Shown here piece after piece: positions 19,809 to 60,115 of a DNA stretch of 64,000 nt (the first letter of the stretch is position 1; the number at the start of each line of letters is the position of its first letter). Both the position numbers and the translations under genes were made by a program. A model generated the notes under the pieces. It worked only from the letters and a program-made list of their open reading frames with translations, was not told where the DNA came from and did no database searches. Source of the stretch: an uncultured Bacteroidales bacterium (GTDB lineage Bacteria > Bacteroidota > Bacteroidia > Bacteroidales > Paludibacteraceae); NCBI GenBank assembly GCA_902798965.1, contig CADBYS010000002.1:1-64000 (forward strand), in the 5' to 3' direction.

Positions 19809-19906
19809 TTCGGCAAATCGTGCTTACGGATGTCGCGCTGCAACATAAAGCGCACGATTGCCTCCGCTCTTCGAAAAACAACGTTGGCACGTTCTTTTTC
19901 GAGATT
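19809..19906 (-). repeat. Structured dispersed element, copy A
   Basis: On the minus strand: a long hairpin TCGAAAAA-G-AACGT...ACGTT-G-TTTTTCGA, the linker AGAGCGGAGGC, an outer stem GGCAATCGTGC...GCACGATTTGCC enclosing CTTT and the hairpin ATGTTGC-AGC-GCGACAT. It ends 8 bp before the tRNA-Ser(GGA) 5' end and so lies in its leader. Copies B, C and D share the layout with different stem sequences. Confidence 0.75.
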
Positions 19907-19957
19907 AAATTGAACCTCGTGTTATACCTTTTTGAGGGCTTAGCACGTAATCGGGTA

Positions 19958-19965
19958 CAAAGGTA
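19958..19965 (-). promoter_or_regulatory. Promoter box for tRNA-Ser(GGA)
   Basis: TACCTTTG on the minus strand matches the Bacteroidota TAnnTTTG consensus, about 155 bp upstream of the tRNA with element A in between. Confidence 0.6.
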
Positions 19966-20080
19966 CAAAAAATTTTTGATATTTCAAAACGTTTTGGCAA
20001 AAAAAATGATTATTTTTGTATTTTTTTTCAAAATTGCATCACTTTTTAGCATTTTGCGGGTCAAAATTTGCAATTTTTGA

Positions 20081-20911
20081 TTATTTTGCGTCAGGAAGTC
20101 GGAAAAGTTTACGGCTGTTGGCCGATGTCACTTCAATTACCTCTTGCGGGGTGCAGTTGTATATTTCCGCCAACTTCATGGCTACGTATTGCATATATAT
20201 CGGTTCGTTTCGTTCGCCCCGGTGCGGGGTAGGTGCCAGGTATGGTGCGTCTGTCTCCAGCAGCAGTCGCTCCAGCGGTACGTTCTTGAGGTTTTCCGCC
20301 AGTTTGCTGTTCTTGAAAGTGAGTACGCCGCCTATGCCCAGGTACATTCCCATCTTCAGCCACTCTTCCGCCACTTCTGCGCTGCCGCTGAAGCAATGTA
20401 TGACACCCAAACATTTGCCATTTGGCCATTTGCCATTTGCCATTTGGCTATTGATATGTTCTTTGACTATTTGCAATGAATCGGCAGTGGCATCACGGTT
20501 GTGGATGATCACGGGTAAGTCAAGTTCGTCAGCCCAGCGCAGCTGGGTGCGCAGTACCTCATGTTGCGCAGCATCGAACTCGCGGGTATAATGGTAGTCT
20601 AATCCTATCTCGCCGATGGCTACGATGCGCTCGCTGATATCCAAGCCGGGGCGGGTGTGCTCAAGTATGGCAGCGTGCAGCACTTCCAGTTGCTCCTTCC
20701 AGTCTTCGAGCACGTTCTGCGGATGCAAGCCCAATACAGGATAGCAGAATCCCCGCCAACGGCGGCATATATCGAAGATACCGTCAATCGAATGCATATC
20801 CACACCCGGCACAACGATGGCCTCTATGCCTCCGTCCTTCTGGCGCTGCAGGAACTCTTCGCGGTCGGCTGCATACGCCTCTTCATCTACATGACAATGG
20901 CTGTCTATCAT
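20081..20911 (-). CDS. tatD: TatD-family metal-dependent deoxyribonuclease
   Basis: 276 residues, TIM-barrel hydrolase. Metal ligands are visible: N-terminal DSHCHVD, AIGEIGLDYHY, VIIHNRDA, and the C-terminal LETDAPYLAP. TatD proteins are 3'-5' DNases/RNases linked to DNA repair or RNA quality control. The start overlaps the queA stop by 4 bp, making it the last gene of the GH53-rlmL-queA-tatD operon. A TTTGCCA mini-repeat adds NSQMANGKWPNGK between beta strands. Confidence 0.9.
   Translation of the reverse strand: MIDSHCHVDEEAYAADREEFLQRQKDGGIEAIVVPGVDMHSIDGIFDICRRWRGFCYPVLGLHPQNVLEDWKEQLEVLHAAILEHTRPGLDISERIVAIGEIGLDYHYTREFDAAQHEVLRTQLRWADELDLPVIIHNRDATADSLQIVKEHINSQMANGKWPNGKCLGVIHCFSGSAEVAEEWLKMGMYLGIGGVLTFKNSKLAENLKNVPLERLLLETDAPYLAPTPHRGERNEPIYMQYVAMKLAEIYNCTPQEVIEVTSANSRKLFRLPDAK
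20411..20449. repeat. TTTGCCA mini-repeat inside tatD
   Basis: Four to five TTTGCCA/TTTGGCCA words in frame, encoding an Asn/Gly/Lys-rich loop of TatD. Confidence 0.7.
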
Positions 20912-22149
20912 AACTCTTTTGTCTTTTGCCTAAACAATATCGACGAATCGCCGTAACTGAGGAACCGGAAGTCGTGGCTCAGGGCGTAGTCGTATATCGT
21001 GTGCCAGTTGCCGCCCACAAATGCCGACACGAGCAGCAGCAGGGTGGATTTGGGCTGGTGGAAGTTCGTGATCAGTACATCTACCACGTGGAAGTCGTAC
21101 CCGGGACGGATCATGATCTGTGTCTCGGCGTGCAGTGTGTCTTGCCCGGTGGCATTCAGGTAGTCGAGTATGGCTTGCAGCGCCTCGTGAGCGCTCACTG
21201 CGTACGAGCGCTCGTAGGGCTCATGTTGGTCAATGTGGATGGTTTCGATGTTTCGATATCTCGATATTTCGATATTTCGAAGCCTGCACCCGATGAAGTA
21301 CAGTGACTCGAGTGTGCGCATCGATGTGGTGCCCACGGCAACTATGTGCCCGAGATTAGCCATCACGTCGGCTATAGCCTGCCGCGGCACGGCAATGATC
21401 TCCGTATGCATGGGATGCTCGTTGGCATCCTCGACCTTGACGGGCAGGAACGTGCCTGCACCTACATGCAGTGTCAGTTCGGTGGTGCGGATGCCACGGC
21501 TACGCAGGTCAGCGAGCACGTTGTTGGTGAAGTGCAGACCGGCTGTAGGTGCAGCTACCGATCCTTTGATGCGCGAATAGACGGTCTGGTAGGTGGTCTT
21601 GTCGCTCTCTTCGGATTTGCGGTTGAGGTAGGGGGGGATAGGTAGTTCGCCTATGGCCTCAAGCAGTTCGCTGAAGGCTACGGACGAATCGTCCCAACTG
21701 AATCGGATGGCGTACGTGTTGCCTTGTGGCTCTCCTTTATGCGCGCGCAGGCGCACAATACGCGTACCTAATTGTATTGTCTGCTCTACGTACTCGGTGT
21801 TGAACTTCTTGGCGTTGCCGACAATACATTTCCATATGCAACCCGTTGTCGAGCTCAGCGACAACTGGTAGTCGTACGGCTCGATAGGTGCCAGGCAGAA
21901 CACTTCGATGCGGGCACCGGTAGTCTTGTGAAACACCAGCCGCGCCTGAATGACGCGGGTGTTGTTATATACCAGGAGCGATCCTTGGGGGATATATTCG
22001 CCTATGCGGAAGAACTTATCTTCGCTCACTCGGCCGTCGCGGTACACGAGCAGCTTGCTGTGGTCTCTTTCCGCGAGCGGGTACTTGGCGATCCTCTCGT
22101 CCGTGAGCGGATAGTCGTACTCGCTTATCAGTATGGGGTTTTCTGTCAT
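20908..22149 (-). CDS. queA: S-adenosylmethionine:tRNA ribosyltransferase-isomerase (QueA)
   Basis: 413 residues. It transfers the ribosyl part of SAM to 7-aminomethyl-7-deazaguanine in tRNA to make epoxyqueuosine. Family stretches include YPLAERDHSKLLVY, VYNNTRVIQARL, GSVAAPTAGLHFT, LHVGAGTFLPV and VLITNFHQPKSTLLLL. It overlaps tatD by 4 bp. The rlmL frame also runs into this gene from upstream. A mini-repeat at 21241-21281 encodes RLRNIEISRYRNIETI after FIGC, an unusual insertion in an otherwise conserved enzyme. Confidence 0.92.
   Translation of the reverse strand: MTENPILISEYDYPLTDERIAKYPLAERDHSKLLVYRDGRVSEDKFFRIGEYIPQGSLLVYNNTRVIQARLVFHKTTGARIEVFCLAPIEPYDYQLSLSSTTGCIWKCIVGNAKKFNTEYVEQTIQLGTRIVRLRAHKGEPQGNTYAIRFSWDDSSVAFSELLEAIGELPIPPYLNRKSEESDKTTYQTVYSRIKGSVAAPTAGLHFTNNVLADLRSRGIRTTELTLHVGAGTFLPVKVEDANEHPMHTEIIAVPRQAIADVMANLGHIVAVGTTSMRTLESLYFIGCRLRNIEISRYRNIETIHIDQHEPYERSYAVSAHEALQAILDYLNATGQDTLHAETQIMIRPGYDFHVVDVLITNFHQPKSTLLLLVSAFVGGNWHTIYDYALSHDFRFLSYGDSSILFRQKTKEL
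21241..21281. repeat. TTTCGATA mini-repeat inside queA
   Basis: Four to five TTTCGATA/TCTCGATA words in frame. They match the word cluster between the efflux genes at 7640-7680. Confidence 0.7.
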
Positions 22150-23422
22150 AATCTTTTTTATTTTGGGGTCCCCGACGCAACCGTGAGGTTGTGGTGGGGA
22201 GAGCGGAGGCCGGCTGAGCTTTAAGACCGCTGTGCGGGCTTCCGTGCGATGCCTTGCCGAACGCGGCTTTCCATTCCTTATGTTCGCCCGCGAACAATTC
22301 GTATTGGTTGAACAGGCAATCCAGCTCGCCGTTCATCAGGTGCAGTTTCTGCGAAGGTTTGAGCCCGATGCATTTCAGCGCTTCCTCGTTGCTGGAGATG
22401 ATCCACGCCGTGGCTCCCGTGAATTGGAACTTCAGCGCCTTGCCTATCTCGCTGTACAGGCGCAGCACGTCTTTGTCCTGCGCCAAGCGTTCGCCGTAGG
22501 GTGGGTTGATCAGTACGAGTGCTTCGGGGGTGCCTTGCTCATGTTTGATCTCCTCGATACGAATCTGCTTGATGTCGATGTACTTCTGCAGTCCCGCCGC
22601 ACGCACGTTTTTCAATGCAGCCTGCACGGCGTAGAACCCTGCATCCGAGCCGTAGATGTGATGCGCGAACTCACGTTCGTCGCTGTCGTCCTGACTCAGG
22701 GTGTCGAACAGGTCTTGGTTGAAATCTTTCCACTTCTCGAACGCAAAATGCTTGCGGAAGATTCCCGGTGGTATGTTCAGGGCGATCAGTGCCGCCTCTA
22801 TCAGTATCGTTCCCGAGCCGCACATGGGGTCGTACAGGTCGCTTTGTCCGTTCCAGCCTGCCAGCAGCAACATGCCTGCTGCCAGCGCCTCGTTGATGGG
22901 CGCCTCGGTGTTCGCCACGCGCCAGCCGCGTTTGTGCAGACTCTCCCCGCTACTGTCCAGCGAGATGGTCACCGTCCTATCGGCTATATGTACGTTGATA
23001 TACAGGTCAGGGTCGGTGATGCGTACGTTCGGGCGCTTGCCGTACTTGTCGTTGAACTGATCGACGATGGCATCCTTCACCTTGTAAGTCACGTAGCGCG
23101 AGTGGCGGAAGGTCTCCGAATACACCGTGGCATCGATGCTGAAGGTCGTTGTCAAGTCCATGTACTGCTCCCATTCGATCTTCTTGACCTCCTCATACAC
23201 GCCATCCGCATCCTCAGCGCGGAAAGTAGCGATAGGTACGAGCACGCGCGAGGCGGTTCGTAGCCACAGGTTGGCTTTGTACAGAACACTCTTGTCGCCG
23301 CGGAACGTTACGGCGCGACGACCGAGTTCAATATCATTGCCGCCAATGGCTGCTATCTCGCCTGCCAGCACCTCTTCCAGACCCTTGAAGGTCTTGGCGA
23401 TCATTGTAAATTCAGAATCCAT
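22016..23422 (-). CDS. rlmL: RlmL-type 23S rRNA guanine N2-methyltransferase
   Basis: 468 residues as an open frame. N-terminal MIAKTFKGLEEVLAGEI and THUMP region (about 1-170), then a Rossmann methyltransferase with LYDPMCGSGTILIEAA and catalytic NPPYGER. The start at 23422 overlaps the GH53 stop by 11 bp. The conserved protein appears to end near FNQYELFAGE; after that the frame continues through structured element C (AAFGKASHG...) and 134 bp into queA in another frame, giving a basic tail that I consider non-native. It methylates G2445-type positions of 23S rRNA. Confidence 0.88.
   Translation of the reverse strand: MDSEFTMIAKTFKGLEEVLAGEIAAIGGNDIELGRRAVTFRGDKSVLYKANLWLRTASRVLVPIATFRAEDADGVYEEVKKIEWEQYMDLTTTFSIDATVYSETFRHSRYVTYKVKDAIVDQFNDKYGKRPNVRITDPDLYINVHIADRTVTISLDSSGESLHKRGWRVANTEAPINEALAAGMLLLAGWNGQSDLYDPMCGSGTILIEAALIALNIPPGIFRKHFAFEKWKDFNQDLFDTLSQDDSDEREFAHHIYGSDAGFYAVQAALKNVRAAGLQKYIDIKQIRIEEIKHEQGTPEALVLINPPYGERLAQDKDVLRLYSEIGKALKFQFTGATAWIISSNEEALKCIGLKPSQKLHLMNGELDCLFNQYELFAGEHKEWKAAFGKASHGSPHSGLKAQPASALPTTTSRLRRGPQNKKDYDRKPHTDKRVRLSAHGREDRQVPARGKRPQQAARVPRRPSERR
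22165..22264 (+). repeat. Structured dispersed element, copy C
   Basis: On the plus strand: CCCC-GACG-CAACC-GTGA-GGTTG-TGGT-GGGG hairpin, the linker AGAGCGGAGGC, then GAGCTTT and the hairpin AAGACCGC-TGT-GCGGGCTT followed by CCGTGCG and TTGCCGAACGCG. It spans the 3' part of rlmL and lies 15 bp from the queA start, antisense to both genes. Confidence 0.72.
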
Positions 23423-24758
23423 ACAGGTTGTACTCCTTGTCGCCTTTGATGATTAGGATTTGTCCGTCGCGCAGGATCTTGCGTATGCCGGAGGTGTTGC
23501 TCGTTGTGGATTCAACGGCAGACTGCTGCTCGGGCAGGAAGTTCTTCATATAGTACGGCGCGCAGACATCGGCTGCGGTCTGTGTTTCCGATACGCTGCC
23601 TGTTTTGTTGATTTTGTGACCGTTGGAGGCGGTGCCCTCATCCCAGAACCCGCGGTTCGACCACGTCTCCTCTACCAAGCCTTCTTTTGTGTTCCAGTTG
23701 ACATTATCGCCGTTGCCGAGATCTTCCGGATACCAATAATTGATACCGTCCACATTATCAAGCGGCTTGAGTGCGTCCACCAGGTCGCGAACGAAGTTAT
23801 ATTGCCCTTGGATGGAACATGGCCATGCATCGCGGGTGTCGTAATTCACGCCTTCGGTCGGCCAATACTGGAAGTTATATGCGCATTCAACAATGTGCAC
23901 ACGCTTGGTGGGGAAAAAGGTCTTCAGGTTCTTGATGGCCTGCACCAGATTGTTCTTGTCGCTCTTATCTTTCACTTGTTCGCTATTCAGATACCCGTGC
24001 CAGAAGGGATAGTAGCTGAGTCCGATAATATCGAAGTCGATACCGCCATTCACCAACTTGTTGTAGTAATATGAGTTGTACCCAGTATTGGTCGGTCGGT
24101 CGGTGTGAATGATGATCTGCGCATTCGGACATACTTCGCGCACGGCATTGCAACCGGCACGGAGCAGACCAAGATACCCCTCCCAGTTGGTACCCTGCTT
24201 GTCGTATGGCGCAACTTTGATACCACACAATCCGTACATGATCTCGTTGCCTACCTGCACGAGGTCGGGCGTTGCTCCGGCGGCGTTGAGTGCCGTCAGT
24301 ACGTCGGTTGTGTAGGTGCTTATATGCTCAGCCATAGCGGCATCATCGCTGCCTTTCCACGCTGCAGGTGCCTGGATATGACCGGCATCCACCCAACTGT
24401 CAGAGTAGTGAAAATCCAACAGAAAATACGCACCGGCATCTTTGATGCGTTTGCCCAGTGCTGTTACGTACGTCAGATCCTGACAGATGGCATAATCGGT
24501 ACTCTGATAGTCCGGTGCTTTCTGCTGCGGGTTGACGAAGATGCGTACGCGGAACGTGTTCCAACCGCAGTCTGTGATGCACCAGCTGATCAGATCGCTG
24601 ATTTTCTTGTTGTTTACATCCTTGTAACCCGAACTGTACTGCTCATACTGCGGCAGCATGGATATGTCGCCGCCCACGTAACGTTGATGCGCGGATTGAG
24701 CGCGTACACACAGCAAACTTGCGCTAATAGCAAGGGTAAGCAAAACGAACTTTTTCAT
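23412..24758 (-). CDS. GH53 endo-beta-1,4-galactanase (arabinogalactan hydrolase)
   Basis: 448 residues from the ATG at 24758, which opens a signal peptide (KKFVLLTLAISASLLCVRAQ). GH53 features: GGDISMLPQYEQ, NTFRVRIFVNP, LLDFHYSDSW, acid/base Glu in VQVGNEIMYG and nucleophile Glu in HIVECAYNFQ. It cuts galactan side chains of pectin. The C-terminus KILRDGQILIIKGDKEYNL resembles the ends of the two surface proteins at 50901 and 60146, suggesting a shared sorting or anchoring tail. It heads an operon with three tRNA/rRNA/DNA-processing genes, an odd combination. Confidence 0.9.
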   Translation of the reverse strand: MKKFVLLTLAISASLLCVRAQSAHQRYVGGDISMLPQYEQYSSGYKDVNNKKISDLISWCITDCGWNTFRVRIFVNPQQKAPDYQSTDYAICQDLTYVTALGKRIKDAGAYFLLDFHYSDSWVDAGHIQAPAAWKGSDDAAMAEHISTYTTDVLTALNAAGATPDLVQVGNEIMYGLCGIKVAPYDKQGTNWEGYLGLLRAGCNAVREVCPNAQIIIHTDRPTNTGYNSYYYNKLVNGGIDFDIIGLSYYPFWHGYLNSEQVKDKSDKNNLVQAIKNLKTFFPTKRVHIVECAYNFQYWPTEGVNYDTRDAWPCSIQGQYNFVRDLVDALKPLDNVDGINYWYPEDLGNGDNVNWNTKEGLVEETWSNRGFWDEGTASNGHKINKTGSVSETQTAADVCAPYYMKNFLPEQQSAVESTTSNTSGIRKILRDGQILIIKGDKEYNLYGF

Positions 24759-24789
24759 GATTGTTTGTTGTTTTTCAAAAATGACTTTG

Positions 24790-24797
24790 CAAAGATA
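24790..24797 (-). promoter_or_regulatory. Promoter box for the GH53-rlmL-queA-tatD operon
   Basis: TATCTTTG on the minus strand, about 32 bp upstream of the GH53 start codon. Confidence 0.65.
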
Positions 24798-24861
24798 CAC
24801 AATTTTTCGCAAATATGCAAGAAAAAATGCAAATAAATTTGTTTTTTTCCAAAAAATACTG

Positions 24862-24869
24862 TATCTTTG
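24862..24869 (+). promoter_or_regulatory. Promoter box for tRNA-Ser(UGA)
   Basis: TATCTTTG on the plus strand with a TTTG about 20 bp upstream. Transcription would pass through element D into the tRNA. Confidence 0.65.
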
Positions 24870-24898
24870 CATGCTTTTTTGGCAAAAACACCCGAAAT

Positions 24899-25001
24899 GG
24901 GGTCCCCGACGCAAACCAAGCCGTAGGCTGTTTGTGGTGGGGAAGAGCCGAGACACGCGTCGCCTTTATGCCGCCAAGCGGCATCCGATGCGATCGCGAT
25001 G
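24899..25001 (+). repeat. Structured dispersed element, copy D
   Basis: CCCC-GACG-CAAAC...GTTTG-TGGT-GGGG hairpin with an inner AGCC-GTA-GGCT, the linker AGAGCCGAGAC, outer stem CGCGTCGC...GCGATCGCG, CTTT, and a perfect inner hairpin ATGCCGC-CAA-GCGGCAT followed by CCGATGCG. It lies between the promoter and tRNA-Ser(UGA), in the same orientation relative to the tRNA as copy A. Confidence 0.75.
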
Positions 25002-25012
25002 TTGAAGGCGTA

Positions 25013-25097
25013 GGAAAGTTGGCGGAGTGGTCGATCGCGGCGGTCTTGAAAACCGTTGACCTGAGAGGGTCCGGGGGTTCGAATCCCTCACTTTCCG
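25013..25097 (+). tRNA. tRNA-Ser (anticodon UGA)
   Basis: 85 nt. Acceptor GGAAAGT/ACTTTCC, anticodon loop CTTGAAA (TGA anticodon), long variable arm, T-arm GGGGGTTCGAATCCCT, discriminator G. CCA is not encoded. Confidence 0.93.
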
Positions 25098-25127
25098 CAA
25101 GAAAGTTCGGGAACAGATGGAAAATGA

Positions 25128-25160
25128 AAAAGAGGAAACTAACGGTTTTCTCTTTTTGTT
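25128..25160 (+). terminator. Terminator after tRNA-Ser(UGA)
   Basis: AAAGAGGAAAC pairs with GGTTTTCTCTTT around a short loop and is followed by TTTTTGTTTT. Confidence 0.55.
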
Positions 25161-25180
25161 TTACAGCTGTTCACGAAAAA

Positions 25181-25240
25181 ACCTTGCAAGGATGCCCCTT
25201 GCAAGGTTTTGGGATTACGCAGCAATCCCTCACTTTCCGC
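25181..25240 (+). repeat. tRNA-Ser 3'-half imitation (hairpin, T-arm-like hairpin, acceptor 3' end)
   Basis: CCTTGCAAGG occurs twice as a strong hairpin, followed by GGGATTACGCAGCAATCCC and then TCACTTTCCGCA. The last 18 bp (25223-25240) repeat the 3' end of the upstream tRNA (25082-25099) exactly. The layout imitates variable arm, T-arm and acceptor of tRNA-Ser, with the altered T-loop also seen at 19485-19625. It could be an att-type duplication. Confidence 0.6.
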
Positions 25241-25251
25241 ACTTCCCCCCC

Positions 25252-26601
25252 CTACTTCCCGATGCAAAATCGTTCAAAGATGGTGTTGAGCACCTCTTGC
25301 GAACTGACTTGTCCGGTTATCTCGCCTAACGCATCGAGCGCGTCGTGCAAGTCGAGTGCCAGCAGTTCGCCGCTCAGTTCCTGCTGCAGTCCTTCCTCCA
25401 CGCGTTGCAATGCTTGCTCGGCGCGGCATAAGGCTTCGTAGTGGCGGATATTGCTGATCATGGCGTTGTCGGCATGCTCAGTCAGGCGGATTACCTCTTG
25501 CTCCAGACGGCTGACAAGCGGGGCGATCTGCTTGTGCTTGGCGCTGATATATATTTCTTCCGCCGATTCGTTTCCGCTTTGCAAATCTACCTTATTATAT
25601 ACGCGCACGCGCGTTTGGCTATCTGTGAGTTCGCTATCCTCAAGCACAGGTTGCGGGTCGGTTATGTCGAGCAGTTCGATGACGATATGTGCCTTGCGTA
25701 TAGCTTGCCGACTGCGCTCTATGCCCATCTGCTCTATGGTATCGTCGGTGGTTTGTATGCCTGCGGTGTCGGTCAGCCTGACCAGCACCCCGGCGATGGT
25801 GAGCGTATCTTCAATCGTGTCGCGCGTCGTGCCGCGTATGTCGCTCACTATCGCCCGCTCATCGCCAAGAAGCGCATTCAGCAAGGTGGATTTGCCGGCG
25901 TTAGGCGCACCTACAATCGCCACTTGTATGCCTTGCTTGATGGCATTACCCGTGCGGAACGATTCAATCAGCTCGCGAAGCATGGTGCGTGCACGTTGCA
26001 GCAAGGCTTGCAGATCCGTTCGATCGGCAAACTCCAGTTCCTCGTGGTCGGCGAAGTCCAACTCCAACTCGAGCAGGGCGGTGAAGGTAAGCAGCTGCTC
26101 GCGCAACTCACTGATCTTGACGGATATGCCACCGCGCAACTGACTGAGAGCCAGGTCTTTTTCGGCTTCCGTCTGTGCGGCAATCAGGTCTGCTACCGCT
26201 TCTGCCTGCGCCAGATCCATACGGCCGTTCATGAATGCCCGTTGGGTGAACTCGCCTCTGTTGGCCATGCGTGCACCGCTGTCGGTAAGCCATCGCAGCA
26301 ACTCCTGCTGGATATACAGGCTGCCGTGGCAGGCTATCTCCACGGTGTCTTCACCCGTGAATGAATGTGGCGCGCGAAATACCGTGCAGATCACCTCATC
26401 CAGAGTCTTGCCACCGCGCACCATGCTGCCATAGTGCGCACTGTGGCTTGCCGACTCGCTTAACCGGTGACGACCCGCGAACAGACTGTCAACAATCCCG
26501 ATAGCTTGCTTGCCGCTCACACGAATAACAGCTATTCCGCCCACACCGGTTGGCGTAGAAACAGCACAAATCGTATCTTCCTGTATCAATATTGTACTCA
26601 T
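25252..26601 (-). CDS. mnmE: tRNA modification GTPase MnmE
   Basis: 449 residues from ATG 26601 (the in-frame upstream codons cover the promoter). The N-terminal folate-binding domain starts DTICAVSTPTGVGGIAVIR. The G domain has GAPNAGKSTLLNAL, DIRGTTRDT, DTAG and NKVD, and the C-terminal CIGK motif supplies the catalytic Cys. With MnmG it makes the 5-carboxymethylaminomethyl group on U34 of several tRNAs. The gene is divergent from rlmH, with back-to-back promoters. Confidence 0.95.
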   Translation of the reverse strand: MSTILIQEDTICAVSTPTGVGGIAVIRVSGKQAIGIVDSLFAGRHRLSESASHSAHYGSMVRGGKTLDEVICTVFRAPHSFTGEDTVEIACHGSLYIQQELLRWLTDSGARMANRGEFTQRAFMNGRMDLAQAEAVADLIAAQTEAEKDLALSQLRGGISVKISELREQLLTFTALLELELDFADHEELEFADRTDLQALLQRARTMLRELIESFRTGNAIKQGIQVAIVGAPNAGKSTLLNALLGDERAIVSDIRGTTRDTIEDTLTIAGVLVRLTDTAGIQTTDDTIEQMGIERSRQAIRKAHIVIELLDITDPQPVLEDSELTDSQTRVRVYNKVDLQSGNESAEEIYISAKHKQIAPLVSRLEQEVIRLTEHADNAMISNIRHYEALCRAEQALQRVEEGLQQELSGELLALDLHDALDALGEITGQVSSQEVLNTIFERFCIGK

Positions 26602-26618
26602 TGCTGCGAAATTTTGCA

Positions 26619-26626
26619 CAAAGATA
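26619..26626 (-). promoter_or_regulatory. mnmE promoter box
   Basis: TATCTTTG on the minus strand, 18 bp before the mnmE start. Confidence 0.65.
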
Positions 26627-26658
26627 CGAAAATTTTTGCAAAATTGCAAATTTATTTG

Positions 26659-26666
26659 TATCTTTG
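26659..26666 (+). promoter_or_regulatory. rlmH promoter box
   Basis: TATCTTTG on the plus strand, 55 bp before the rlmH start, facing away from mnmE. Confidence 0.65.
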
Positions 26667-26720
26667 TGCGATTATTCACTCCGCGTATAGCGCTAAAACC
26701 ACGTAAACAACGCAAATCGT

Positions 26721-27191
26721 ATGAAAACAACCCTCTTGGTAGTTGGCAAGACAGTAGGCAGCGAATTGCCGCAGATGATTCAGACGTACACGCAACGCCT
26801 CAAGCATTATATCTCTTTCGATATTCAGGTTATCCCTGACCTGAAGAACACCAAGAACCTGAGCGAGCAGCAACAGAAGGAGCAGGAAGGTGAACTTATC
26901 CTTCGTGCCGTAGGGCAGAGTTTCGTTGTGCTGCTCGACGAGCATGGCATCGAATACCGCAGCCTGGCTTTTGCCGAGCAACTGCAATCGTGGCTGAACA
27001 CCTCTACGCGCGGCTTGACGTTCGTCATCGGAGGAGCATATGGTTTCAGCCCGGCTGTCTATAACCGTGCGGATGCCAAAATCTCTCTCAGCCAAATGAC
27101 CTTCAGCCATCAAATGATCCGTCTGCTGTTTGTGGAGCAGCTATATCGTGCCATGACGATTTTGCGGGGTGAACCCTATCACCACGAATAG
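26721..27191 (+). CDS. rlmH: 23S rRNA pseudouridine-1915 N3-methyltransferase RlmH
   Basis: 156 residues, a SPOUT methyltransferase. The SAM-binding knot is marked by LLDEHGIEYRS and TFVIGGAYGFSPAVYNRAD, and the C-terminus by LSQMTFSHQMIRLLFVEQLYRA. It methylates the pseudouridine at 1915 of 23S rRNA after 70S assembly. It is a single gene followed by a small-RNA-like region, divergent from mnmE. Confidence 0.95.
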   Translation: MKTTLLVVGKTVGSELPQMIQTYTQRLKHYISFDIQVIPDLKNTKNLSEQQQKEQEGELILRAVGQSFVVLLDEHGIEYRSLAFAEQLQSWLNTSTRGLTFVIGGAYGFSPAVYNRADAKISLSQMTFSHQMIRLLFVEQLYRAMTILRGEPYHHE

Positions 27192-27319
27192 CATGTTTTT
27201 TGGGGATTATGGGGGTGTTTGTATGTTCAAATGTAATATTCGGATAACAAAAATAGCGAAAAATATGTTATAAAACATGTTTTTTTGGCGAAAAATTTGC
27301 AAATATGCGAAAAAAGCAG

Positions 27320-27327
27320 TACCTTTG
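27320..27327 (+). promoter_or_regulatory. Promoter box of candidate small RNA
   Basis: TACCTTTG with a TTTG about 20 bp upstream, located between rlmH and a convergent glycosyltransferase gene; no ordinary gene follows it. Confidence 0.6.
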
Positions 27328-27332
27328 CACCG

Positions 27333-27400
27333 TGTTTTTCATGGTATTAGATTTAAGGTTAATGAAGATTGGGTTGTCGTGAGACAATCCTTCTTTTTTT
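27333..27400 (+). ncRNA. Candidate short RNA with mini-ORF, about 68 nt
   Basis: A complete transcription unit without a normal gene: promoter box at 27320, transcript of about 68 nt, and a terminator (GGGTTGTC-GTGA-GACAATCC then a T-run, 27371-27400). It contains a 13-codon frame MVLDLRLMKIGLS (27341-27382) whose stop lies in the terminator loop, so it could be a leader-type peptide or purely an RNA. The downstream gene is on the other strand, so it is not an attenuator of that gene. Confidence 0.5.
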
Positions 27401-27438
27401 ATCCCATTTTTACCGGGATAGTTTTGCTGAGGAAAATT

Positions 27439-28587: not shown

Positions 28588-28605
28588 TGCACTAATAACT
28601 TAGTG

Positions 28606-30492: not shown

Positions 30493-30551
30493 GGTATATT
30501 TTTTTAGTATGTTTTACGATATAAATTAGCGTATTTTTTACAAATCGACCG

Positions 30552-48786: not shown

Positions 48787-48787
48787 C

Positions 48788-48880: not shown

Positions 48881-48888
48881 GCAAAAAT

Positions 48889-49415: not shown

Positions 49416-49433
49416 CAAAATGGTAAATGGTAT
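49398..49433. repeat. ATGGTAA mini-repeat at the hipS/hipT junction
   Basis: Four to five ATGGTAA/AAATGAC words spanning the end of hipS and the start of hipT, producing several in-frame ATGs. Confidence 0.7.
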
Positions 49434-50746: not shown

Positions 50747-50754
50747 TAACTTTG
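50747..50754 (+). promoter_or_regulatory. Promoter box of the giant surface-protein gene
   Basis: TAACTTTG, 147 bp before the start codon, leaving a long leader. Confidence 0.55.
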
Positions 50755-50900
50755 TACTCGTTTTTGGTGCAAATCATTGCCAAATCTTGCGATTCATCTT
50801 AAAAATAGAACATTTTTGATGAAATTACCGCAGATTCCGCCTGATTGCCACAAACACCCAAAATTCAACAATTTATAACGAATTTTTAACTAAAAACATA

Positions 50901-53900: not shown

Positions 53901-56900
53901 ACTCGGAATAAAAGTTATGACATTAGTTCTAAAGACTATACTCAAATAAAAATAGAGTTATCCGGTGGTGTTAATACCAGATATTACGAAAATCTCAAGG
54001 TAACCCGTAAGACGTACCTAAATGCATCTGATTTGACCATTGACAAGACAGCCAATAACCTGCCGATCTACCCGGGCGAGAGCGACAAGCCTGGTGTAGG
54101 AACACTGAAGGTAGATTATTCGCTCTCTAACGGAGGCGACCTGAAGATATATAGTGATAATCCGAAGTTCACGCTCAATAAGACTACTATCACGGGCATT
54201 GGATGTAATGCTGGCAGCGAAGATATTTCCATCGAATACCGTTCAAACGAAGCAGGTGACGATGTGGCTAATCTTGTGATTTACAATGACGTGTACCGTA
54301 AGGAGGTGAAAGTGACAGGAAAGACCGTCTTGGCGGCACAAACCATTACATGGAACTATGACATGATCCGCAATGGTCAAGAGGTAACGGATGCAGCTAC
54401 TGCTCCGAACTTGGTGACCTATCACTCAGAGGATGATAACATAATACAAGTTCTCGAAGATGCCAACGGCAACAAAACAATCCTAAAAGGTGTAGGTGTA
54501 GGCACAGTAAAAATCATCGCTACCGCAGCCGGCGACAACTATTATGCCGAAACTCCCTCGGAGAAGACCATCGAAGTTACTGACAAACAGGTGCAAACGA
54601 TTGTTTGGAATCAGTCGCTCATGGGCTTGAAGCTCGGAGGGAGCAATGTTCCTCTTATAGCTGCAGTTACTTCCGATGTGGAGGGATGCAACTCTACTCG
54701 AACTATTACTTATACCTCAGCTAATCCGAAAATAGCCGAAATTGTCAATGGTAATGAACTGAAGATTAATGCTATAGGTAGCACCGTTATTACAGCAGTT
54801 CAAGAAGGTGGAGAGGATAGCGATGGACATGATTATGCACCTGTCTCTACCGAGAAGACGGTTATTGTACGCGATCCGAATGCTCCGTGTGAATCCTATG
54901 TGTACGAGCAGTCATCTGAGGTGAAGTTTGATTTGGGCTGGAATGCCCTGAACAAACTAACCAAGTACAGTTCGGAGATATCCTTCGGCGACAAGACTCC
55001 GGATATCTGTACCATACGTTACAAAGGAGAGGCGATAAATGTTTTTCTTGATTATTACGCCGGTACGATGACCGTTGAGCAGTATGTGGACGGCTGGTCT
55101 ACAGTAAGAAATCTGGGTAAACCTGCCATTGGAGAGTATCATGCAGACACGTTCCCTCTTAATCCTGCAGCTACGAAGATGCGTATCAAAGTAAGCGACG
55201 GAATGGGATACCATTACTTCACTGACTGCCGCGTTTCGCAAGCACGATTCATCAATAATACCACTACCCCCGAGGCGTTTGTATGTAATGCAGGACAAAG
55301 TGTAAGCCAAGCAATATCGTTCAACTACTCGAACTTGACCGATGGCTTGACACTTACCTTCGCACGAGGAACAGATTCGCACTTCAGTGTAAATAAGGAA
55401 TATATTGATGGTCAGTGCGGCTCATACAAGAACGGAGAGACGGTGACTGTATCATACAACCCCGCTATAGCTGAGTCGAACATCAAAGATACGCTTATCA
55501 TCACCGACGGTACAACTACTTGCCGTGTTCCGCTCCTGGGCTCGGCAACCGCATTGGCACGCCACATAGAGTGGAATATACCCGATAACAATGAGGAGAA
55601 CACCCTGCAAACCATTACATTGAACGCTGCGGCTCTCACAGGCGCTGGTGATGCTGCAGGTGAGGTGACTTATGGCTTGGACGGTAACTCTACCACCGGT
55701 TCAATCAACAACGGTGTCCTTTCATTTGACCGCGATGGCACTGCAATCGTCAAAGTGAACACGGTTGCTGATAACCGCTATAGTGATGCTGCTGAGATTA
55801 CAAAGACATTCGTTGTAAGTAAAACGCCTACCCAGGTAACCGTATTGCCTACGGCACATAACTTGGCTCTGGGACACGATGTAACAACAGTTGCTTTCAA
55901 GACAAACGGAGAGGTGAAGAACACCTATAACAATGCAGTCATTTCAGGTTCGTTTGCTGCCGTGAGCGGTGATGTAAGCACCATTGGTGACAATGAGATA
56001 ACCGTACGTTTCACTCCGGAAAATACCGACTTGTACGCAACATGCGAGACGAACATCGTTGTCTCTGTAGTAACAACCACCTTTACTGCCGATGGCGACT
56101 GGAGCAGCAAGGGCAACTGGAACACAGGTGTTGCACCTGTAGACAATGATGACGTAATCATCAATGCTGACGTGAAGGTTGTTGGTGATGTTGAAGTGAA
56201 CGATATTATCATCCGCGATAATAAGACTATCACTATTGCTCAGAATGCTTCGTTAACCGTCAACGGCACAACAGGTAATGTTAGCACCTACGGCAACATC
56301 GTTATCGAAGCCGGCGGCAAACTCATCCTCAATGGCGGTGAAGTTCACCTCAACGAGTTCACCTTGCAATCGACCTTCGACAGCGAGAACCCGATGTCCG
56401 GACAAGTCATCAACCAGAACAAGATCATCATGCACGGCGACGCATACTTCGTGTTGGATCTTGATCCCTCTGGCACGGCAACCTACGGATGGTACGACTT
56501 CGCCGTTCCCTTCCCCGTTGACGCGCTGCATGGTATCACACGCTGGGAGAACGGTGAGTGGATGACGCTTACCAACGAGTATCACTACGCAGTGATGGCT
56601 TATCATGAGGATCTGCGCGCTCGCACCAAGAACGGCTGGAAGAAAATTACAGGTATCCTCCAACCCGGTCAGGGTTATACCATCACCCCGGGCAATGAGG
56701 TGAACCGTTATCGTTTCGAGATAGTTGCCGGCAATCAGTTGGCTGCTCACGGCGACTACAACCTCAGCGCATCAAGCGAAGGTGATGATATCGATCGTGG
56801 CTGGAACAGTCTTGGAAACGGTACAATGGAGTACATTGCCCTGGATAACGCTCCCGCTGGCCTCGTGCAGATGTTCGATCATCAGCACAACGTTTACAAG

Positions 56901-57596
56901 ACGGTAATTGCTGACGAAAGCGCGTTTGTGGTCGGTGCTGCCTACTTCGTACAAGTAGCAGAAAGCAGTGTGCTCAATATCAGCTCCGCTGACGAAAATG
57001 CTACATTGCGTCGTGCTCCGCAACGCGAGTCGAACAACGATGACACCCGAATCGTGCTCAATCTTAATGCCAACGGTAAGACGCAGGATAAGATGGTTAT
57101 CACTTGCGACGACGAGGCTACCTACAACTACACCATCGGCAAGGATGTCTTGAAGATGGGTAAGACTACAGGCACAAGCATCGCACGTCTCTGGACGAGC
57201 GCCAAGGACGCTAATCTCTGCGCCTACAACGCACCGTACCTGAACAATCAGGCAATCGTTCCGCTCAATATCTACGCTCCGGCAGCAGGCGAATATACGC
57301 TCGCGTTGGCTAATACTCCGAACGAAGAGGTTTACTTGCGCCGCAATGGTGTAATCATCTGGAACATGGAGATGGGCGACTACTTCGCTGACTTCGCAGC
57401 CGGAACAGATAGCTCTTACGACCTGCTTGTTATTCGTCACGCACCCAACACCGCAACAGGAATTGATGCAATTGATAGCGAAAACGACAAGAATGGCACG
57501 ATTTTTGTAGAGAAAATGATTGTTGACGACCAACTCTATATCTTGCGCGACGGCACGTTGTACGATGCACAGGGTAGAGTAGTTACTAACCGCTAA
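50901..57596 (+). CDS. Giant secreted protein with Listeria-Bacteroides repeats, 2231 aa
   Basis: Signal peptide to about residue 41 (LLLLIALGLFCLNESAWA). Residues about 100-550 hold several InlB-B/Flg_new repeats (SGYTFTGWFTAETGGTQV; TGYTFAGWATSDDGN). Next come similar Ig-like blocks repeated around DPSFSGSSYNGLKV and YDPSFDGSAYNNLKV, Big_2-type domains, and a beta-helical region near residues 1730-1870. The end KMIVDDQLYILRDGTLYDA matches the tail of the GH53 and B12-operon proteins. Probably displayed or secreted (type IX-like sorting is an inference). The first 4.5 kb has lower GC than the neighbours, suggesting a different history from the C-terminal part. Confidence 0.85.
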   Translation: MKNLYNLLTQCARRTLFLHKTTLLLLIALGLFCLNESAWAGNTWKANVGVGVGNGTAVAKINSDAIVGGGVKSTSAAATSTTTKQAKWSSTSSLTKGHAIFEATASDGYSFDAWYTNTACTSGKAEGNPYTTTSNRGGTYTYYAKFTPNQYTITLNKQSGSGGASSIKVTYDASTNLTSAISKPSRAGYDFKGYYTQANGGGTQLIDANGNVLQSKTGYTDANKKWVNAGDVTLFALWQAASYTVFFNAHGGNAVDNKGVTYNSQYGTLPSTTRSGYTFTGWFTAETGGTQVTSTTTVSITTNQTLHAHWLAHYSVAFHANGGNGSMTAQSFIQGTAQNLKENTFTRTGYTFAGWATSDDGNVVYEDKQNVNNLSTTGNATVNLYAKWTANTYYVSFNGNGNTSGSMSNQTFTYNEAKSLSSNVYGKSYTVSFDGNSGTPASSKLTATAPFQGWATTANGDKVYNDKQSVSNLTITNGATFSLFAKWGVGTITLPSATRSAYHLEGWYNGDNKVGDAGQAYTPTSNVTLVAHWTQSQLATSFGGSNQGMNVGDAQNNAFVLNNAPNAQAHISITSINDVTDGSGKVIEYNAATNTITARNAGVATIYFTQDETDEVTGGTSATWTYTVTKKDPSFSGSSYNGLKVDDIQIADYSYSDVSASAPSASSNDAFYFTVDDVTFTNVSKNKGTDLVTYNPSTKEITACNAGTGKITLHQRETYKYNAGSKSFDVKVSKYDPSFDGSAYNNLKVEGAQTVDYSSLNTSAAKPSASSNDAFYYTIDVTSFTNEDLNNGTDLATYDPTSNTLTPKNAGTGNVTLHQSETYKFNAGSQSFGITIGKWDNTLYVNGKTSYSCSISMADVVTDVTLTATNTDYTNSPINVTQTAGNKVAVFDKFAKTIAAIGTAGTATWSIHQDENYKYFAGNNTFSAEVKAAAEVTDCYVLNVPTQQTSTNTFDLDAKGKTLYIDFRRSWGDISASIKIIGISSNGEEEIDSPSWDDNWTRNKSYDISSKDYTQIKIELSGGVNTRYYENLKVTRKTYLNASDLTIDKTANNLPIYPGESDKPGVGTLKVDYSLSNGGDLKIYSDNPKFTLNKTTITGIGCNAGSEDISIEYRSNEAGDDVANLVIYNDVYRKEVKVTGKTVLAAQTITWNYDMIRNGQEVTDAATAPNLVTYHSEDDNIIQVLEDANGNKTILKGVGVGTVKIIATAAGDNYYAETPSEKTIEVTDKQVQTIVWNQSLMGLKLGGSNVPLIAAVTSDVEGCNSTRTITYTSANPKIAEIVNGNELKINAIGSTVITAVQEGGEDSDGHDYAPVSTEKTVIVRDPNAPCESYVYEQSSEVKFDLGWNALNKLTKYSSEISFGDKTPDICTIRYKGEAINVFLDYYAGTMTVEQYVDGWSTVRNLGKPAIGEYHADTFPLNPAATKMRIKVSDGMGYHYFTDCRVSQARFINNTTTPEAFVCNAGQSVSQAISFNYSNLTDGLTLTFARGTDSHFSVNKEYIDGQCGSYKNGETVTVSYNPAIAESNIKDTLIITDGTTTCRVPLLGSATALARHIEWNIPDNNEENTLQTITLNAAALTGAGDAAGEVTYGLDGNSTTGSINNGVLSFDRDGTAIVKVNTVADNRYSDAAEITKTFVVSKTPTQVTVLPTAHNLALGHDVTTVAFKTNGEVKNTYNNAVISGSFAAVSGDVSTIGDNEITVRFTPENTDLYATCETNIVVSVVTTTFTADGDWSSKGNWNTGVAPVDNDDVIINADVKVVGDVEVNDIIIRDNKTITIAQNASLTVNGTTGNVSTYGNIVIEAGGKLILNGGEVHLNEFTLQSTFDSENPMSGQVINQNKIIMHGDAYFVLDLDPSGTATYGWYDFAVPFPVDALHGITRWENGEWMTLTNEYHYAVMAYHEDLRARTKNGWKKITGILQPGQGYTITPGNEVNRYRFEIVAGNQLAAHGDYNLSASSEGDDIDRGWNSLGNGTMEYIALDNAPAGLVQMFDHQHNVYKTVIADESAFVVGAAYFVQVAESSVLNISSADENATLRRAPQRESNNDDTRIVLNLNANGKTQDKMVITCDDEATYNYTIGKDVLKMGKTTGTSIARLWTSAKDANLCAYNAPYLNNQAIVPLNIYAPAAGEYTLALANTPNEEVYLRRNGVIIWNMEMGDYFADFAAGTDSSYDLLVIRHAPNTATGIDAIDSENDKNGTIFVEKMIVDDQLYILRDGTLYDAQGRVVTNR

Positions 57597-57608
57597 AATC
57601 GAATAGAT

Positions 57609-57752
57609 ATGCAAACAACAAAAACATATATCCGTCCCGCTACGAATGTGTTCATGCTTTCGACCATGGATCGAATGATGCAGAATATAGCAGGTTCACC
57701 TGAGCATCCTAATGTTGGCGCTGCCCCCGTTCGATTCCCCGAGGATAACTAA
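57609..57752 (+). CDS. 47-aa peptide downstream of the giant surface gene
   Basis: ATG 57609 lies 12 bp after the giant gene and the frame ends before a terminator, so it belongs to that transcript. The sequence has a TYIRPATNVFMLS head, a MDRMMQNIAGSP middle and an Asn/Pro-rich tail. This shape (Tyr-x-x-Pro start, internal Met-Met, Gly-Ser-Pro) resembles short peptides I associate with Bacteroidales surface-protein loci, but I know no function. It is missed by usual length cut-offs. Confidence 0.55.
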   Translation: MQTTKTYIRPATNVFMLSTMDRMMQNIAGSPEHPNVGAAPVRFPEDN

Positions 57753-57774
57753 TCAAGCCTCAGGCTCATTCTAC

Positions 57775-57812
57775 CAAACGTCCCGCATCGTAAGATGTGG
57801 GGCGTTTGCTTA
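57775..57812 (+). terminator. Terminator after the 47-aa peptide
   Basis: CAAACG...CGTTTG with an inner TCCCGCAT/ATGTGGGG stem, followed by a short T/A-rich run. Confidence 0.65.
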
Positions 57813-57820
57813 TATAACTC

Positions 57821-57876
57821 GTTTAATTCTTATCTCGTTTCACTCGAACGATTATTTCGCTTAATTCGTGAACAGT
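57821..57876 (+). repeat. Compound repeat: TTTAATTCG words around a 30-bp repeat (copy 3)
   Basis: GTTTAATTC, then the 30-bp repeat TTCTTATCTCGTTTCACTCG... (57827-57858), then GCTTAATTCGTGAACAG. The same two elements are adjacent at 3025-3122. Confidence 0.65.
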
Positions 57877-57890
57877 TATTGTCCATTGTA

Positions 57891-57922
57891 ATCCGTGTTT
57901 TCCGTGACCTTCCGTGTTCGTG
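57891..57922. repeat. TCCGTG mini-repeat
   Basis: Three ATCCGTGTTT/TCCGTGACC/TTCCGTGTTCG words, same family as inside the GH20 gene. Confidence 0.6.
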
Positions 57923-57975
57923 TAATATTCAATGACAAATTCATTGAATTTATTTAGTTTTATTTTCTAATTATA

Positions 57976-59403
57976 TCATTGGAATAGATCTTTTGCCGTC
58001 AGTGAAGAGTGCACAAGCGATGTATGCATTCCTTCTTTTAACCCGTAAGGAGTGACAAACGTCAGCACCACGCCTCGCTCTATACCATTCTCTTCCATAA
58101 ACAGCTGCTTGCGCGCGGTAAGCCGTTCGGCATAGTCTTTTTGGATGGCGTATGTCTTTGCTGAGAACTTCATCTCGCACAGATGAATCATCTTGTCAGC
58201 GCGCGAGATAACCAAATCAACCTGTGCCCCTTTGCGCTTGTCGTCTTTCTTGGGCACAAATCGCCACGACGACGCTTCGGTTGCCATCCCCGAGATACCC
58301 AAACCGCGCTTGATCTGCGGCAAGTGACGCAAACAAACCTCCTCGAACGTAAAACCTTCCCAACTCTCTACACTTCGATCCTGGAAGTGGTGAAGCCAGT
58401 ATTGCTCATCTTTTGAGCGGTTGTCTTTGACGTAACGGAAATAGAACAAGGTATAGAAATCGCAAAGACGATATAAGGTCTGCTTTGTCTTATTGCCATA
58501 TTGTGCGTACGACACTACAAAATCGCAGCGCTCCAGGTTCTCAAGGATCTTGGTCAGCCCCCCGCCTGAATAACCGGTCTCGTCAGAAATCTCCGTCTTG
58601 GTGAATCCTTCGCGCTTGGTAGCAAGCAACTGAACAATACGTATATACTTATCCGCTCTCTTGAACAAAGCGTTATATAGCTCCTTAAACTCGTCGTGCA
58701 AGTCGCCTCCTCTGCGGAAGATTAGAGCATCCACATTCTCTACCAGGCTAAGCTGCGGCCGAAGCAGACTCATGTAGTATGGCACTCCGCCAAAGATCAT
58801 ATAGAACTGCAATATCTGGTAGTCTTCCCATTCAAATCCGTTCGCTTGCAGGTATTGCTTGCACTCGCTCAAGTAAAATGGACGCAAGTATATCCGGTGC
58901 GTGATGCGATTATGCAAGCCGCCTTGGTTGTCTTCCAGCTTCTCTTTCATCCATGTCGTTGCACTTCCGCAAGCGATAAATACTATATCGTCTCTATTCT
59001 GCACCCAACTTGACCAGAAATACTCCAACTCGCTCACGAAATCGCTCTTCTGCGTATCAATCCAAGGCATCTCGTCAAAGAACACTACCTTCCGTGCCTC
59101 TTTGCTTTGCCCCAGGCAGTTTGCCAACTGCCGAAACGCTTCGTGCCAGTTCTGCAACTCCGGAATATCTGCATCAGGATAGAACCCTTGCAGTGCCTCG
59201 CGAAAATTTGCCAACTGAGTCAGTAGGGGTTTCTTGTGAGCACCTACAAAGTGAAAACTGTATGTGTCTTTACAAAAACTCCTTACCAGGAAGGTTTTTC
59301 CTACGCGCCTGCGTCCGTACAATATTACAAACTCCGAACGCTTTGAATCCAATGCTCGCTGCAATTCTGCCAGCTCTGTTTGACGTCCAATCAAGCTTTC
59401 CAT
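57976..59403 (-). CDS. ATPase with C-terminal DUF234/PD-(D/E)xK-like domain (paralogue 2)
   Basis: 475 residues from ATG 59403. Walker A YGRRRVGKTFLV, Walker B VVFFDEMPWID, sensor FIACGSATTW, middle winged helix, and C-terminal AQVDLVISRADKMIHLCEMK with an Asp...Glu-x-Lys pattern. Clearly paralogous to 43155-44573 along the whole length. Upstream are a nearly identical promoter and a two-unit 52-bp inverted-repeat array of its own sequence. The function is unknown; it may recognise or be controlled by that array. Confidence 0.82.
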   Translation of the reverse strand: MESLIGRQTELAELQRALDSKRSEFVILYGRRRVGKTFLVRSFCKDTYSFHFVGAHKKPLLTQLANFREALQGFYPDADIPELQNWHEAFRQLANCLGQSKEARKVVFFDEMPWIDTQKSDFVSELEYFWSSWVQNRDDIVFIACGSATTWMKEKLEDNQGGLHNRITHRIYLRPFYLSECKQYLQANGFEWEDYQILQFYMIFGGVPYYMSLLRPQLSLVENVDALIFRRGGDLHDEFKELYNALFKRADKYIRIVQLLATKREGFTKTEISDETGYSGGGLTKILENLERCDFVVSYAQYGNKTKQTLYRLCDFYTLFYFRYVKDNRSKDEQYWLHHFQDRSVESWEGFTFEEVCLRHLPQIKRGLGISGMATEASSWRFVPKKDDKRKGAQVDLVISRADKMIHLCEMKFSAKTYAIQKDYAERLTARKQLFMEENGIERGVVLTFVTPYGLKEGMHTSLVHSSLTAKDLFQ

Positions 59404-59427
59404 AATCTTCCGTTTTAAAATTTTGTG

Positions 59428-59435
59428 CAAAGATA
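59428..59435 (-). promoter_or_regulatory. Promoter box of ATPase paralogue 2
   Basis: TATCTTTG on the minus strand with TTTG at 59456-59459; the array begins just upstream. Confidence 0.65.
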
Positions 59436-59468
59436 CAACTTTTTTTTGACATTTGCAAATTTTTAGTG

Positions 59469-59571
59469 AGTTTTTTGTCCAAATCTATACTTTTTTATCC
59501 ACATTTGGAAGAAAAACGTTAGTTTTTTGTCCAAATCTATACTTTTTACCCCACATTTGGACAAAAAACCA
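59469..59571. repeat. Two 52-bp units with TTTTTTGTCCAAAT inverted repeats
   Basis: Units start at 59469 and 59521. Both begin AGTTTTTTGTCCAAATCTAT. In the second, TTTTTTGTCCAAAT (59523) faces ATTTGGACAAAAAA (59555); in the first the right arm is decayed. Confidence 0.8.
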
Positions 59572-59665
59572 TGGAATAGTCTTTAATTGTCTTTAATAGT
59601 TGACTCCCAAATCCATCGTAATTACATCCGCATGGATTTTTGATTTACTAAAAGCTCCATTGTAG

Positions 59666-59696
59666 TTCTTATCTCACTGCGCTCGAACGATTATTT
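59666..59696 (+). repeat. 30-bp dispersed repeat, copy 4
   Basis: TTCTTATCTCACTGCG then CTCGAACGATTATT. Confidence 0.65.
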
Positions 59697-59771
59697 GTTG
59701 TATGTTGTTGGCAACATAACAAAAAATGCAACATTCTTGCAAAATTATTTGCAAATATCAAAAAAAAATCG

Positions 59772-59779
59772 TATCTTTG
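59772..59779 (+). promoter_or_regulatory. Promoter box of the B12 operon
   Basis: TATCTTTG about 70 bp before the cobalamin riboswitch; a hairpin ACGTTAT...ATAACGT follows at about 59791-59824. Confidence 0.6.
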
Positions 59780-59844
59780 CACTCCGAAACGTTATCGCAG
59801 GCACTTTTTGTGCCCCAATAACGTAAAATTTAACAAAAATTATA

Positions 59845-60115
59845 GCGGACTTCGGTTCTTTTGCCCCAAGCAAAAGCCAAGAGGGAATCAGGTGAAAGTC
59901 CTGAACAGACCCGCTGCTGTAAGTCGCCTTCGGCAAACCGCGCTAACAGATTGCGCTTGGCGCAATAAAGCGCACGGTTGCCTCGGCTCTCCCCAAAACA
60001 ACTTTGCAAGTTCTTTTGGGGAATCCCGAAAAGAAGGAAATCTTACCAATGAAGCCACTGCCGAAAGGTGGGAAGGCGGTAAGACTGAGATGAGTCAGAA
60101 TACCTGCCGATGTCC
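59845..60115 (+). promoter_or_regulatory. Cobalamin (B12) riboswitch
   Basis: The conserved aptamer is clear: GAGGGAATCAGGTGAAAGTC, CTGAACAGACCCGCTGCTG, GAAGCCACTGCC-GAAA-GGTGGGAAGGCG split here by hyphens, and AGTCAGAATACCTGCC. It should shut off the downstream surface-protein genes when B12 is plentiful. It is longer than usual because element B (59929-60027) sits in the peripheral part between CTGTAAG and the GAAGCCACTG segment. Confidence 0.92.
59929..60027 (-). repeat. Structured dispersed element, copy B (inside riboswitch)
   Basis: On the minus strand: CCCC-AAAAG-AACTT...AAGTT-GTTTT-GGGG hairpin, the linker AGAGCCGAGGC, outer stem GGCAACCGTGC...GCGCGGTTTGCC, GCTTT and a perfect inner hairpin ATTGCGC-CAA-GCGCAAT. 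Confidence 0.75.

Follow-up and report, generated by a model that had tools for sequence, protein, structure and literature searches.

A structured repeat of ~100 nt recurs four times in a 64,000-nt stretch of DNA from an uncultured Bacteroidales bacterium (contig CADBYS010000002.1, positions 1 to 64,000; hereafter the window). It is probably a non-autonomous mobile DNA repeat, related in kind to repetitive extragenic palindromic (REP) sequences and miniature inverted-repeat transposable elements (MITEs), and it is seen in one genus only. Each copy combines a first hairpin (hairpin 1) with a second structured module, the core. The original prediction proposed that these copies are either functional RNAs or mobile elements of the REP/MITE-like kind. 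The second reading is favored by the dispersal of the copies, by sites that are filled in some genomes and empty in others, by an insertion into a riboswitch, and by turnover among species. The idea of a single functional RNA is disfavored because 30 of the 51 copies with an assigned context appear, from their neighbors, to lie antisense to transcription, compared to 21 that lie sense.

A covariance model built on the element core, a search that the original prediction had proposed, reveals further copies. The 2.85-Mb genome that holds the window (G000; other G-numbers denote related genomes and L-numbers denote loci taken from them) has 37 model matches, of which 35 span the whole core (E < 1e-5) and two are weak fragments at contig ends. 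The relatives G001 and G007 carry 31 and 35 matches, respectively. Among 61 related genomes, 27 have matches at E values up to 0.001, all of them within the 37 genomes of the same genus, and none of the 24 genomes from other families matches this model at that threshold. A scan of 393 genomes across the order found matches in only two (E up to 1e-4), both among the three same-genus genomes shown, but with 13 candidates scored per genome its sensitivity was lower (13 of the 35 own copies recovered), and rare or diverged copies could escape it. The nearest named relatives, as judged by one protein, are metagenome-assembled genomes labeled Bacteroidales or Paludibacteraceae, many of which come from ruminants.

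Searches beyond cellular relatives were negative within their scope. An exact long pattern has no matches in viral contigs, and the 27 stretches retrieved there with a looser pattern were judged to be chance resemblances (best model match 28.7 bits). The model matches 16 of the 27 viral sources at E values up to 0.1, though these were selected for the motif, and the match in L353 lies away from it. Plasmids gave no match with a single copy as query, one core pattern had no matches in a collection of genome contigs, and no description of this repeat was seen among the open-licence papers listed.

The copies in the window and the features adjoining them are listed below. The promoter-like calls are based on TAnnTTTG, which we take to be a Bacteroidetes promoter motif.

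Copy A, 19805-19902, minus strand: hairpin 1 at 19871-19902 (TCGA...TCGA type), core at 19805-19870; 85.5 bits.
tRNA-Ser (GGA), 19713-19801, minus strand: copy A ends 3 nt short of the mature 5' end.
Promoter-like TACCTTTG, 19958-19965, minus strand: upstream of copy A.
Copy C, 22165-22265, plus strand: hairpin 1 at 22165-22199, core at 22200-22265; 63.9 bits.
Copy D, 24899-25010, plus strand: hairpin 1 at 24899-24943, core at 24944-25010; 70.3 bits.
tRNA-Ser (TGA), 25013-25098, plus strand: copy D ends 2 nt short of the mature 5' end.
Promoter-like TATCTTTG, 24862-24869, plus strand: upstream of copy D.
Copy B, 59925-60027, minus strand: hairpin 1 + core 59925-59990; 86.9 bits; antisense within a cobalamin riboswitch.
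Cobalamin riboswitch (RF00174), 59836-60125, plus strand: 71.9 bits; the 189-position model is stretched across 290 nt by copy B.

All four copies have the order of parts originally described for them. Their borders nearly agree with those first proposed, except that the 3' ends are shifted by a few bases by the element's ...GCCGAASGCG end (GTTGAAGGCG in copy D), which closes the linker stem. Judged from its sequence context, copy A is part of the pre-tRNA leader of tRNA-Ser (GGA). Copy C has the lowest score of the four, and 15 nt separate it from the start codon of an open reading frame (ORF) on the minus strand (20908-22149).

Comparisons with relatives reveal that these sites can be occupied or vacant. 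G000 and G001 carry the element at sites A and D, and G007 has both of these sites vacant. Among the same three aligned genomes, site C is filled only in G000, and the model finds nothing at the corresponding loci of four further relatives. The riboswitch site of copy B holds the element in G000 and G001 and lacks it in G009; the span assigned by the Rfam riboswitch model is 290 nt in G000 and 273 nt in G001, versus 217 nt in G009. At the L019 site, both flanks are matched in G007 and the element is missing. The 30 G007 copies retrieved (of 35) include counterparts with both flanks matching for four of the 37 G000 copies, although diverged flanks or contig ends could conceal more. Dispersal is evident from L082 and L087, which are 0.938 identical over hairpin 1 and core and have flank identities of 0.57 and 0.62, within the 95% range for random pairs (0.615 and 0.631). 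Target duplication was looked for and not detected: flank matches of 4 nt or more occur in 10 of 83 copies versus 7.2 expected from shuffled flanks, with some hairpin-1 borders in this test set by folding and possibly off. Also, at 392-440 and 794-859 of L171 (G001:C41), a second element copy lies ~350 bp from a stretch that is 94% like part of the riboswitch region of the window.

In order, the element consists of hairpin 1, an AGAGC linker, a core stem interrupted by a conserved internal loop (GA/GAA), and an inner hairpin. The commonest form of hairpin 1 is GGGGTCCCC...GGGG, and many tRNA copies instead have CGAAAAAG...TTTTTCG. Next come AGAGC and the closing box of the core, GCS-GA-GGC...GCC-GAA-SGC, whose internal loop may form tandem G.A pairs. 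Past this box are a variable outer stem, CTTT, an inner hairpin of 7 bp closing a ~3-nt loop, and CNGTTA. The best matches in other species of the genus mostly keep the closing box and diverge in the distal part.

Both folding and covariation indicate that this architecture is conserved. As a single strand, each copy folds better than 200 of 200 shuffles (z of -3.95, -3.02, -3.38, and -4.93 for copies A, C, D, and B); for copy C, the minimum free energy fold taken by itself does not show the consensus core. Covariation, on which the original prediction had based its argument for a selected structure, proved strong. In 15 own-genome copies, aligned with MAFFT and with the structure supplied by the analyst, 97.1% of cells are paired and both partners change in 12 of 21 pairs, compared to 22-44% of cells paired in slid-partner controls for the same copies; shuffles reach the observed values in 0 of 500 cases on four of five measures and in 1 of 500 on the fifth. 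Changes on both sides affect 16 of 21 pairs among 36 distinct own-genome matches and 17 of 21 among 41 distinct matches from two relatives, in alignments that were fitted to the covariance model and hence lean towards its structure. Pairing of the inner hairpin despite changed letters holds overall as first noted, but the inner arm of copy C has one A.G mismatch that had gone unmentioned. The joint change of the hairpin 1 ends is confirmed by four coupled types across 84 copies, in which the outer four pairs are CCCC/GGGG (36), CCGA/TCGG (9), TCCC/GGGA (7), or TCGA/TCGA (6); no hairpin end was found in 4. Chance similarity is ruled out by the shuffled folds, the covariation, and the genome-wide matches. 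A known Rfam family was likewise rejected, given that at gathering scores nothing matches at the four copies save the riboswitch broken by copy B. At E values up to 1, six loci gave tRNA, rRNA, and sub-threshold matches, none of which describes the element.

Genomic context was read for 86 copies by using a simple gene caller and ARAGORN. These comprise the 37 own matches, of which two are fragments, together with 30 of the 35 in G007 and 19 of the 31 in G001. Three copies lie within a called ORF and the rest lie outside. The classes comprise 21 copies in sense orientation before a tRNA, 15 antisense by a promoter-like motif, 10 antisense at a stop codon, four antisense at the 3' end of a tRNA or tmRNA, and one in a riboswitch, with 35 remaining without class. 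It is the GCG end that meets the border. In 20 of the 21 tRNA copies its distance from the mature tRNA 5' end is -1 to 4 nt; it falls exactly at the stop codon in eight of 10 cases (the other two at -1 and 2 nt), and is exactly 4 nt from TAnnTTTG in nine of 15 promoter-class copies, an offset that, given usual promoter anatomy, presumably places the element start near +1. Across copies with a called neighbor, 35 of 66 have the GCG end -2 to 4 nt from the border of a gene or tRNA, and the hairpin-1 end is within 4 nt of a border in none of 72, the smallest gap being 7 nt. The preference of one end for gene borders is precise.

Tight gene packing possibly explains the abutment to stop codons, as the stop codon overlaps the start codon in G007 at the L019 site. 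Packing does not account for copies A and D, which still have tens of bases of tRNA leader on their other side. A deletion ratchet was considered as an explanation of the abutment; the G007 tRNA-Ser(GGA) leader that lacks the element is intact up to the tRNA and a clean insertion fits better, although this is one site and not decisive. Passages of PMC3733652 report that REPs in other genomes are also found near ORF 3' ends. In relatives, other hairpin-like sequences were seen by eye directly 3' of stop codons at element sites (L297, L298, L299, and L287).

The structured strand of a cis-acting RNA should be the transcribed strand, but by context 30 of the 86 copies appear antisense, against 21 in sense and 35 unassigned. 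Wobble pairs offer another view of which strand folds: the forward strand has 46 G.T cells against 11 A.C cells in 77 distinct copies, and 22 against 4 in the 28 judged antisense to transcription. Such cells are not independent events in either set. Given that antisense copies outnumber sense copies by context and that wobbles favor the forward strand, we infer with moderate confidence that this strand folds even where it is not transcribed, hence as single-stranded DNA.

An enzyme that might act on such a fold was sought among Y1 proteins with a long C-terminal extension (RAYT-like), which match in 26 of the 37 genomes of the genus and in eight of the 24 others, with about seven loci in G000. 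When three Y1 proteins were compared with Pfam, one reached the Y1_Tnp cut-off and no other Pfam family was matched. This Y1/HUH-like family of ~330-450 amino acids (L124, L125, L311-L330, and others) has several paralogs per genome, and its C-terminal part is unnamed by Pfam in the three tested. Bacteroidetes Y1 genes with atypical flanking structures are described in passages of PMC6006769, so an HUH route for movement of the element would be plausible. A RAYT as the proven mobilizer is unsupported, because RAYT-like genes are common and the element is not beside them except in G022. The RAYT-locus entries yielded one further match (13.3 bits, E 0.43), and diverged subfamilies could escape the model.

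Other hairpins occur around these genes and around the element itself. Several RAYT-like genes, among the matches listed, are flanked by other simple hairpins. In L136 (G019:C21), hairpins of the form GTAGAGACGAGGC...GTCTCAC are scattered near a weak Y1 match and look like GTAG-type REPs, and repeated REP-like hairpin units lie beside element copies in L082:3100-4050 and L087 (G007). A separate hairpin of ~30 nt, GGGGTCCCC...GTGGGGTGCC, is nested in element copies L075, L103, L110, L083, and L152, and is also present in L108, L302, and L131, the last beside a Y1-like gene in G008. It resembles hairpin 1, has apparent 5-6 nt direct repeats at its sides when read by eye (AGGCA, AGGCAG, AGAGC), and looks as if it were self-inserting.

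Several observations weigh against a mobile element. A mobilizing gene or an autonomous copy was not found, with no systematic search for an autonomous copy made. The 34 RAYT-locus entries, some of which overlap, include the element near only the G022 locus (entries L123 and L275), and genomes G019, G020, and G024 are rich in Y1/RAYT-like matches yet lack the element. The most similar pair of copies, L078 and L079 (0.962), has alike upstream flanks as well (0.80), so dispersal cannot be read cleanly from it. Certain tRNA leaders retain a copy across several species, which fits a host function too. Removal of one recurrent U.G pair lowers the wobble asymmetry to 25:11 overall and 9:4 in antisense copies. 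Furthermore, local GC skew reveals no replication-strand preference (16 of 35 positive), although this test is weak.

If the element were instead a functional cis-acting RNA that spread by duplication, perhaps as a leader structure aiding pre-tRNA processing or protection, the 21 sense copies whose ends nearly touch mature tRNAs would be accounted for. So would the tRNA-Ser(GGA) leader, which holds a copy in G000, G001, and G009 and an apparent reduced version in G034 (19 bits). Six orthologous pairs (G000 versus G001 or G007) also speak for it: 102 base pairs are unchanged, and of the 24 that differ, 19 changed on both sides, three changed on one side with pairing kept, and two are broken. 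This count took six pairs, leaving out other likely orthologs such as the riboswitch copy, and block replacement or re-insertion may explain part of the differences, as some of the six differ by a whole hairpin-1 or core subtype. We consider this explanation unlikely because 30 of the 86 copies are antisense by context, the same tRNA-Ser(GGA) leader lacks a copy in G007, G035, and G014, and non-standard pairs are similar in tRNA copies (7 of 378 cells) and in others (31 of 1206 cells, with one unassigned row omitted). A cis-acting role may nevertheless apply to the pre-tRNA leader copies.

The border position might also reflect function rather than insertion if the copies were host-selected hairpin insulators, serving as mRNA 5' caps, intercistronic stabilizers, or terminator-like spacers. 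The exactness with which the reverse complement begins after stop codons or at a fixed distance from promoter-like motifs agrees with this proposal, as do the other hairpin-like sequences that relatives (G000, G034, G035, and G001) bear after the same stop codon at the L093 site, as read by eye. It too has little probability in our view, since presence among relatives is patchy, the L093 site is nearly spacer-free in G027 and G014, the GA/GAA loop and G.T wobbles suit the other strand, and tight packing alone can push intercistronic insertions against a stop codon, as at the L019 site. Still more doubtful is a deletion derivative of an IS200/IS605-type element, with hairpin 1 as the left end, the core as the right end, and TnpA supplied elsewhere. 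Two unlike hairpins, the lack of detectable target duplication, Y1 proteins in the genus, and a 5' flank that is rich in A/T and has a pyrimidine ahead of GGGG in 48 of 52 cases (G being excluded by construction) are consistent with such an origin. However, hairpin 1 directly adjoins the core in nearly all copies listed and no transposase was seen between them, no fixed tetranucleotide flanks the element, and the sole inter-core interval read (L082) contains REP-like arrays and no recognized Y1-like ORF.

The preferred reading, a mobile repeat, can be placed among known systems. Like REP/REPIN sequences (TnpA-REP/RAYT, HUH Y1), the element is multi-copy, mostly intergenic, hairpin-forming, and patchy between species. 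It differs in being longer, in having two unlike structured modules, and in abutting tRNA 5' ends and promoter-like motifs on one side only. The REP tag GTAG/CGTC was not seen 5' of the hairpin foot, as 52 flanks show only an A/T-rich WWY before GGGG and the linker before the core stem is AGA. The REPtron arrangement, in which a tnpA-REP gene is flanked by the same repeats, was not found among the 34 Y1/RAYT-like locus entries, where only the G022 locus has a copy. BOX and ERIC composite repeats are likewise modular, structured, intergenic, and around 100 nt, and belong to a different lineage. For Bacteroidetes RAYT subclass 2.6, 'atypical secondary structures' are mentioned in passages of PMC6006769. 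Bacterial MITEs, such as that of Porphyromonas gingivalis (PMC4596501), are also short, non-coding, dispersed, and presumably trans-mobilized. MITEs share terminal inverted repeats with an autonomous transposon; the ends of the element are different hairpins, no target duplication was found, and no autonomous copy was noticed, no systematic search having been made. The FopS small RNAs (RF04319; PMC11697453) are similarly a multi-copy structured Bacteroidetes family, but none of the four copies matches RF04319. A separate match to this family of paralogous RNAs is present in the window at 27332-27403 on the plus strand (74.1 bits).

A mobile repeat of this kind could operate as follows. When single-stranded, the forward strand would fold into hairpin 1, the core stem with its GA/GAA loop, and the inner hairpin. 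A trans-acting enzyme, for which an HUH/Y1 single-strand transposase is the leading guess, might recognize this fold and copy or move the element without target duplication. Copies are retained where genes begin or end, with their 3' GCG end facing the gene or promoter. A bolder possibility, which we regard as rather unlikely, is that the element represents a new class of bacterial mobile element in which structure directs insertion, such that the GCG end is joined to tRNA or tmRNA genes, ORFs, and transcription starts. Its enzyme would read a single-strand fold with a tandem G.A loop, and its copies ahead of tRNAs would have been co-opted as pre-tRNA leader structures.

Repeats that preserve a structure are usually taken to be functional RNAs. 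Here the covarying strand is more often untranscribed where the context can be read, and caution is therefore warranted in such assignments. If the preference for borders reflects targeting, then these elements would exemplify a new way for small mobile DNAs to find safe sites. The coupled changes found across the genus also provide many natural compensatory variants for working out what a binding enzyme reads.

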